Part shown: positions 1,099 through 61,601 of the stretch, piece after piece
Numbering within the stretch: the first letter of the stretch is position 1
How the letters are laid out: every line of letters begins with the position of its first letter
DNA from: Ptychodera flava
Taxonomy: Eukaryota; Hemichordata; Enteropneusta; Ptychoderidae
Assembly (NCBI RefSeq): GCF_041260155.1
Contig: NC_091947.1
Location: 24,823,615-24,887,614, forward strand
Direction: 5' to 3'
DNA: 64,000 nt
Program-made: the position numbers and the translations under genes
The notes under the pieces: model-generated
What the model saw: the letters and a program-made list of their open reading frames with translations, nothing else
Told to the model about the DNA's origin: nothing
Databases searched by the model: none

Positions 1099-2780
1099 CA
1101 ACCAGAAACAGCTGTAGAGGATGAAACAGAGTTCCCGGACCAGTTACCTGACCCACCGACAAAACTTACGATCGAAAATCGACAAGAGGTAATGCATATT
1201 CTTAATGCCATATCATTCCTTATTTGCACAAGAACAACGTTACTTTTGCTTTGTTTCAAAGGTTTTTCCTTCGCACTACATTCAATGGTATTGGCAGTTT
1301 TGTATAATCTACCATATCCCAAACGGTTGTGGGGAGTATTGTACCTTACACTAACGACAAAAATCACATAAAGGTAGCTGTGCCTCACTTACAACAGAGG
1401 CCTGGGACTTAGCGCGGAATTTTACACTAATTCCTGTGTGGAAATGGGAATAAGGGGTGTAGTATTCGGCGCTGTATTCAGCATCTCCTCAGTGCAATAA
1501 ACTATGGAAGCCCAGTTGCCTGGATAATCTATCCGCGAAGATTAGTGTGTATTGGCACTCCAGGCTAGCTCATAGTGATACTACTTACAATTATAGTTCA
1601 GTATACTTTATAGTATCACTGAGTCTTTAGTGACCATACGCACTAAAAGCTGGGCGTCACCTCAGATAGCTCATGTAGGCAACGTTTCAAGAACCTGTGG
1701 TTATACTGACATATATCAGTCGACACATATAGAGCCCTATGTGTGTCGTTTGCGTTTACATGAAAGAACGATATGATTGAAACGACATGTACATGTATAG
1801 AAACAGGTGCTTTCAATTTCATTAGAGAATAACCACATAAACAATAAACAGATAGCTCATATGCTTATCATACCTTATCCAAACCATTCGATGCTGGTTA
1901 TCTACTTGTCTATGGTCTATTTAATCACAGTAAATAAATGATGATATACTCCCAGCGTATAGTCTGGATTGACTGTGTGTAGGTGAATACGATATCCACA
2001 AACACTGGAGAGGAGATATTCTTTCTAATTTTTTCGCTTCCTATGTGTTTTGAATACAGGCGGAGCAAGCCTTACGCAAGTATTGCCGCGATTTGCTGAC
2101 GTTTAGAAGATGGCTCAAAGCTCTTACACAACAGTTCCAAACAGTTCGGAGACAAAATGCCCGTCTCATGAAGTCGTTAAAGACTAAAACGAAACGAGTG
2201 AGAGTACAAGCCAGGCTAGTGGTAAGCCTTCAATATCATAATTTCTTGTTAAATTGACGCGGAAACAGGATGCGAAAAATTATGACATGAAAATACTTAC
2301 ATTTCTGGGAAATGTGACTTTTCTACATTATCTGCAACGTTGTTCAAGAAGCCAACGCACAATACAAACACATATGTATATGTATTTACAGTGTCTGTCT
2401 GTCTGTCTGTCTGTCTGTCTGTAGTCTGTCTGTCTGTCTATCTGTCTGTCTGTCGTCTGTGTGTAAATGCATGCATACATGCATGTATTAAAATATTTGA
2501 CTGGAGTATAAAATAACCTCAGTTTCATCAAGACAACGTCTACATTGATGTGTTTGTTCGTTACTTATGCAGACTTTTCATTGCACGATTTTTCTTCATT
2601 TTTCTAAAGATCACGGAAGACGTGGAATCCCGCTCACAGAGAAGGGAAGATTCAACGAGTATCCCGTCACACATCGACGACAGCCAAGTGATGGTGTTTC
2701 TTGAGAAATACTACCTTTACGAAGTTTCCAGTAATCAAATTATAGACTATGTCATCCAAAACATTGATTTTGAAGACTAA
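1099..2780 (+). CDS. Gene A: class I helical cytokine-like protein (CNTF/IL-6 type), partial at 5' end
   Basis: Three coding exons are visible: 1099-1188 (30 codons), 2060-2221 (54) and 2610-2780 (56 plus TAA). Each is bounded by AG and GT and each junction is phase 0, giving 140 residues. Exon one is acidic and proline-rich, as expected of an AB loop. Exon two is a strongly helical, basic B-C segment with RDLLTFRRWLKALT, close to RDLLVYRTWLKALT in gene B. The last exon has an acidic linker, then an amphipathic helix D opening with VFLEKYYLY, whose F-L-E-K fits the F-x-x-K LIFR contact motif of CNTF and LIF. No cysteine pair is evident. The helix-A exon and start codon were not found in the window. 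The family assignment rests on exon plan, paralogy to genes B-E and motif; receptor and function are inferred. Donors are gtaatg and gtaagc. Confidence 0.78.
2392..2464. repeat. (CTGT)n microsatellite
   Basis: Interrupted tetranucleotide run of CTGT lying in the last intron of gene A, between the helix B-C exon and the helix-D exon. Confidence 0.95.
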
Positions 2781-3629
2781 GTTAAGCAACTTTCGTCGTT
2801 GCCTCGGCAACTGAAAAGTTTCTTAATGCTTCGATCCAGTGGGGGACTGCTTGCAACGAGAAACTACCCAGTAACAGCTCTGGATAAAGCGACGGCAAAA
2901 TATAAAAATTAATTTCCTTGATTTGAGGCGCGCCTTTTTTAGCTCTCATAGCAAGACTCGGACAAATTTGTGACCGTATTCATGCATAACCGTATTTCCT
3001 GGACGTCACTTGACCTGCACTGGACTCGATTTAAACCGCTTTTGCTGAACTTCAGTTCTCGAGACTGCGCAAAATGGCTAACTTCATCCCGTTAAATCCT
3101 ACACTGCAAATTCTTCTGGATTGAAATTTCAGAACACTGTCTATAGTATTTATTCCAATTCGGTTTGCGGGCAAACTTATGTGTCTTTGAGCATGAAATA
3201 CTTAACCAGAAAACTTACAACAGCAACTATAAACCGGACAATATTGTATCCCGGACCTGCCGTGGACATCTTTCATTTCAGAGCAATGCGCTTTGTCATA
3301 TGGAAGGCCAATACTATTACATAAGCTTACTTATTCAGGTTTGCCCTAAACATTGTACAACTTCAGATATAAGGGCGCGGGTCTGATGTGTTTTTGGCAC
3401 AAGTTTACCTGTGACTCAAGCAATGTATGGCACTTTTTATTTATTTAAAAAGAACGTGTTTTAAACCAAGTGTAATTAAAAAGAACATATTACGGATATA
3501 TGTGCTACATAAATATTGACAACTTAACAGAGGATTTTAATTTTATAGTTCATATGTATGTATGTATGATGTCATTTTCCTTGAATCTGTATTTTTATAT
3601 TCTTGTATCCGTATCTATTTTTGAATGTA

Positions 3630-61300: not shown

Positions 61301-61601
61301 TATAACCACAAGGACCCTTTGAATCCATGTTCATAAGACGTTGTTAAGTCGTTCAGAGTAAAACATGTCTCTCATTTCCATTCGTTTACAGATGTCCAGA
61401 CTCGGAGAACCGCAGACACTGTCAACGACGGAGAAATTTGATGTCTTTGATCGTATCCATGACAATGATATAGCACCCCTAAGCAACCCGACATTAATCA
61501 AGGACAGACAGCTGGCCGTCTTGTATAACTTAACGGTCGTGTACTTACCGTCTGCAGCCCAAGCCTTAGGTTATGTTATCTTAAAAGCTGCTTATCAATA
61601 G
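58319..61601 (+). CDS. Gene E: secreted class I helical cytokine-like protein; leader exon not located
   Basis: Exons 58319-58518, 60137-60244, 60723-60893 and 61392-61601 (stop TAG) encode a split codon plus 66+36+57+69 = 228 residues. The first visible exon enters in phase 1; the later introns are phase 0. It opens with AVRFSVLLVFAIGSVKA, a classical signal-peptide core with likely cleavage after VKA. Two cysteines (FPC, LQC) and helix A (LHSTVKEIYDTF) follow. The AB loop KGQRYNDEDIDL parallels KEEKFGDPDVDN of gene D. Helices B-C include FQVFKVFVDMMKEEE and then EMFTPSLERYFFQDF, recalling the VHFTPTEGDFHQAI turn of CNTF. Helix D has the LSNPTL...LAVLYNL pattern matching LSNRSL...LKVLEGL in gene D. 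One sequon, NLT. Donors are all gtaagt. Family and secretion are well supported; the receptor is unknown. Confidence 0.85.

Follow-up and report, generated by a model that had tools for sequence, protein, structure and literature searches.

The array on the plus strand

The plus strand of a 64,000-nt window (the whole stretch of DNA that was analysed) from the hemichordate Ptychodera flava carries five genes of the same plan, termed here A to E, and one broken copy. With all exons re-derived from the sequence, the tandem arrangement on one strand of five genes and a pseudogene given in the preliminary description was borne out, as were its limits of 1099..61601, which are exact: 1099 is the first base of the A-B-loop exon of gene A, and 61601 is the end of the gene E stop codon. 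Searching a helix B-C exon profile against 2888 six-frame ORFs turned up no copies in the window beyond the five genes and the pseudogene pieces. The exons, named for the helices and loop assigned to them, and associated features are as follows:

1099..1188, plus strand: gene A, A-B-loop exon (30 codons, phase 0 at both ends; inside protein entry P0003)
2060..2221, plus strand: gene A, helix B-C exon (54 codons; inside P0003)
2610..2780, plus strand: gene A, helix D exon with stop (inside P0003)
7476..7543, plus strand: pseudogene, relic of the A-B-loop exon (68 nt, not a multiple of three; also in the list of phase-0 exons, in another frame)
8077..8250, plus strand: pseudogene, relic of the helix B-C exon (acceptor AG lost, in-frame TGA)
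19316..19324, plus strand: TATA-like box preceding the start of gene B, by direct reading
19373..19504, plus strand: gene B, first coding exon with Met and helix A, without leader (44 codons; in-frame stop at 19361)
21399..21500, plus strand: gene B, A-B-loop exon (34 codons; inside P0001)
21807..21971, plus strand: gene B, helix B-C exon (55 codons; inside P0001)
22268..22456, plus strand: gene B, helix D exon with stop (inside P0001)
35075..35173, plus strand: gene C, first coding exon with Met and helix A, without leader (33 codons; identical to P0002)
38522..38602, plus strand: gene C, A-B-loop exon (27 codons; top splice score in the list of phase-0 exons; identical to P0002)
38974..39126, plus strand: gene C, helix B-C exon (51 codons; identical to P0002)
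39651..39830, plus strand: gene C, helix D exon with stop (identical to P0002)
47194..47387, plus strand: gene D, helix A preceded by the last part of the hydrophobic leader (entered in phase 1; 3' part inside P0004)
49261..49371, plus strand: gene D, A-B-loop exon (37 codons; inside P0004)
49758..49922, plus strand: gene D, helix B-C exon (55 codons; inside P0004)
50446..50673, plus strand: gene D, helix D exon with stop (inside P0004)
58319..58518, plus strand: gene E, hydrophobic leader and helix A (entered in phase 1)
60137..60244, plus strand: gene E, A-B-loop exon (36 codons)
60723..60893, plus strand: gene E, helix B-C exon (57 codons)
61392..61601, plus strand: gene E, helix D exon with stop

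The lesions in its two relics, a length of 68 nt in the first and the missing acceptor and in-frame stop of the second, uphold the pseudogene as real.

Homologue searches with the joined exons, which required shared five-residue words, returned only P. flava entries, each an 'uncharacterized protein' (P0001 for gene B, P0002 for C, P0003 for A and P0004 for D), and none from outside this species; gene E was absent from the returns of the same searches. Our exon joins match these public models, which may or may not be backed by RNA-seq, letter for letter in four of the five genes (A, B, C and D): the match covers all four exons of C, the three in-window exons of A, the last three of B, and D from a Met within its helix-A exon. 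All exons of gene C had been read from the DNA before P0002 was seen, and the two are identical. The helix-A exon of gene A is absent from the window and was supplied by P0003; it aligns at 40% with the first exon of gene B, which is missing from P0001, a model that begins at a Met in the A-B-loop exon. Similarly, P0004 begins inside helix A of gene D.

The genes differ at their 5' ends in ways that go beyond the preliminary description. In A, B and C (A as represented by P0003), a Met lies just ahead of helix A and no signal peptide is visible; D and E carry a hydrophobic leader, with a phase-1 intron ahead of the helix-A exon. A search upstream of D and E for first leader exons yielded none for E and, for D, one otherwise unsupported candidate (45864-45885).

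Exon plan and relationships among the genes

The four-exon core (helix A, A-B loop, helices B-C, helix D) ascribed to these genes is present in all five, the first exon of A being taken from P0003, and the introns between these exons, earlier described as mostly phase 0, are phase 0 throughout, with the first intron of A again deduced from P0003. Exon sizes had been described as close: from A to E, the A-B-loop exons comprise 30, 34, 27, 37 and 36 codons, and the B-C exons 54, 55, 51, 55 and 57. Moreover, the B-C exon starts exactly ten residues ahead of the helix-B motif in every one of the five genes. When phase-0 AG..GT exons 80-175 nt long are counted from a summed splice score of 6.8 upwards, the plus strand contains ten, all within genes A to E, and the minus strand none, against 23 in total and at most four per strand in 20 simulated strands; these chance figures are descriptive, the threshold having been set after the scores were seen, and one acceptor is counted with two donors among the ten. 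The A-B exon of gene D scores 5.0, under the threshold.

Differences between A and B fall most often at third codon positions in the B-C exon (23/20/37 for the three positions) and the D exon (23/12/32); this is not so in the A-B exon (15/10/14). When a profile of four B-C exons was used to retrieve the fifth from the 2888 six-frame ORFs, it recovered A (E 5.1e-9), B (8.8e-7), D (0.0023) and E (0.015), and the exon of gene C came up at rank 11 with an E of 1.8. The five genes share one plan, and A, B, D and E are relatives of one another.

The same plan (separate exons for A, A-B, B-C and D divided by phase-0 introns, with the leader intron in phase 1), with like exon sizes and a like boundary, occurs in human G-CSF and IL-6. 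Our literature searches found no paper confirming the vertebrate intron positions.

Predicted fold and comparison with helical cytokines

Of the two proteins modelled, A and D, the structural reading uses A. The model of the gene A protein (pLDDT 60) has the helix order and the long A-B and C-D loops of a long-chain class I bundle, helix direction being judged from structural matches and not from coordinates, and IL-11 and IL-6 head the 50 structural matches shown for it. In the alignment behind the model, one gap within the helix D exon is doubtful; three other alignments of these proteins were dropped, MAFFT having misplaced short exons. No CNTF, interferon or IL-10 chain occurs among the 50 matches, an absence that excludes nothing.

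Searches by sequence gave no significant cytokine match. A Pfam search with eight proteins, run alongside a short ORF unrelated to them, returned no cytokine model among its rows, such families being fast to diverge; the best weak row, a SinI endonuclease (E 0.0024), was discarded as below its own cut-off and confined to a short piece. Neither phmmer searches of PDB with the D and E proteins nor a search with the five-protein profile gave a cytokine, all rows being weak (best E 0.033). Aligned by hhalign to single human sequences, the five-protein profile scored 22.3 with IL-11 (0 of 60 shuffles as high), 16.2 with CNTF (2), 15.8 with IL-6 (3) and 12.7 with G-CSF (8), and reversed human sequences reached 9.4 to 13.8. 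Among eleven other proteins, CLCF1 scored 20.3, but the control myoglobin scored 17.7, because of which the profile scores alone prove nothing. Read by eye, helices were aligned with their counterparts in CLCF1, LIF, EPO, IL-4 and IL-2 and not in leptin, GH or IL-10, the remainder of the eleven being three non-cytokine controls. A Smith-Waterman alignment of D with IL-6 (score 53; 0 of 300, then 2 of 3000 shuffles) was rejected, because the part of D that aligns is its C-D region, whereas that of IL-6 is the A-B region together with helix B.

The alignments agree in the register of helix B: in four of four human cytokines, D85 of gene A lies opposite the first residue of the motif (GLLEF, DLLSY, NLQAY or GLFLY). 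Of 400 shuffles, none gave this register exactly and two came within two, in a test that was not blind (earlier alignments had been seen) and with shuffles that lose helical periodicity. These proteins also have in common with IL-6 and IL-11 an LP in the A-B loop 22-24 residues ahead of the helix-B motif, a pattern that CNTF fails; it was chosen after these sequences were seen, and its chance figures are descriptive. A cysteine pair ahead of helix B is a signature of IL-6 and G-CSF, and the corresponding C-x9-C-x6 is found in the compared stretches of human IL-6 and G-CSF and in none of the five proteins (A without its first exon); of the other compared sequences, IL-11 has no cysteine and CNTF has one.

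Together, the gene A model, the helix-B register and the exon plan support membership in the class I helical cytokines, as originally proposed. An unrelated, lineage-specific four-helix family, partly intracellular and cytokine-like by convergence, could look similar in outline; we regard this as improbable, given a helix-B register identical in all four human cytokines, the IL-6-family matches that lead the structural list, an exon plan in which D and E add a leader intron of phase 1 to the phase-0 introns, and the hydrophobic leaders of these two. Class II cytokines of the interferon or IL-10 type are a very improbable source: four phase-0 introns are described for teleost type I interferon genes (PMC4929537), which speaks for them, whereas D and E have a leader intron in phase 1, IL-10 aligns over only three columns, and neither interferon nor IL-10 appears among the structural rows shown, the last being weak evidence.

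We therefore consider it likely that the five tandem genes of this hemichordate window encode long-chain class I helical cytokines, nearest by the structural model to the IL-6/IL-11 branch. Of the 'IL-6/CNTF-like' label first given to them, the class I assignment stands, with the IL-6/IL-11 branch as the nearest by model; IL-11 and IL-6 match better than CNTF, which fails the LP spacing and is not among the 50 structural matches shown. Because the cysteine signature is absent and use of gp130 is a proposal only, the proteins are filed with the class I superfamily and not with IL-6 proper. They resemble IL-6 and IL-11 in helix order and spacing (gene A model), LP spacing, helix-B register and, with IL-6 and G-CSF, exon plan, and differ in having no significant sequence match to them, in the lack of the IL-6 cysteine pair, in the absence of a leader from A to C, and in forming an array of five. 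A narrower alternative within this explanation, with odds that overlap its own, places them in class I but outside the IL-6 branch, as an old stem group or as relatives of GH/prolactin or EPO, the nearness to IL-6 and IL-11 in one weak model being incidental; we hold this to be possible but doubtful.

Each protein of this class I family would fold into four bundled helices, the A-B and C-D crossover loops being long, as predicted for A and extended to B-E. D and E would be secreted through their signal peptides, and the leaderless A, B and C may be released by another route, as is CNTF, which has no visible signal peptide. Most likely, the proteins would bring together two chains of class I receptors of gp130/Domeless-like type, such as has been reported in an acorn worm, and would trigger JAK-STAT signalling in immunity or tissue repair. 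We lean towards the view that a clustered, expanded IL-6-branch set in acorn worms, part secreted and part leaderless, places the ligand side of gp130-type JAK-STAT signalling and its exon plan already in the ancestor that hemichordates share with vertebrates, in which case one portion of a major immune pathway of vertebrates may have arisen earlier than has been supposed.

Our searches (titles and the beginnings of abstracts, with few subscription papers covered) found no account of a hemichordate class I cytokine, and for a group described as including acorn worms one review notes that 'no type-I helical cytokine gene has been detected' (PMC9010856). The same review describes amphioxus GH-like (GHl), which likewise is a type-I helical cytokine from an invertebrate deuterostome and has low identity to those of vertebrates, and mentions several further GHl-related amphioxus genes; GHl differs in coming from a chordate and in being placed near GH, and the likeness is by description only. 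So is that to the Drosophila Unpaired proteins, which have been proposed as helical ligands of Domeless, a gp130-like receptor (PMC5385356, PMC13203501). According to a survey from 2026 that covered 18 metazoan phyla or subphyla, IL-6 occurs in vertebrates only, by BLAST at 30% identity or more, and a receptor of the family traces back to molluscs, with IL6R named in the hemichordate Saccoglossus kowalevskii (PMC13203501); a search at that 30% identity, as there described, would miss genes A to E. According to other papers, S. kowalevskii responds transcriptionally to a mimic of viral RNA and hemichordates are described as lacking a clear homologue of type I interferons (PMC10210618), BLAST of 54 invertebrate genomes yielded no leptin-signalling homologue (PMC5385356), and the sea squirt has two class I receptors (PMC1963337). 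With a candidate ligand set at hand, the question of what activates the invertebrate receptors of this family becomes directly testable, and the exon plan combined with the helix-B pattern provides a route to finding more such genes.

Repeats and other elements in the window

An Rfam scan of the window gave no match. Three copies of a 71-nt repeat lie in intron 1 of gene B (21004-21074) and upstream of gene C (33429-33499 and 34457-34527, at 86% and 63% to the first), and intron 1 of gene D contains two tandem 81-nt units (47808-47970). Between genes D and E, at 54180-56221, there is a tandem duplication of about 1.15 kb, with pieces 91-99% identical and a GA microsatellite. A 20-nt repeat is present in 5.7 copies (98%) at 6228-6341, and frames at 10793-11907 resemble a decayed non-LTR reverse transcriptase.
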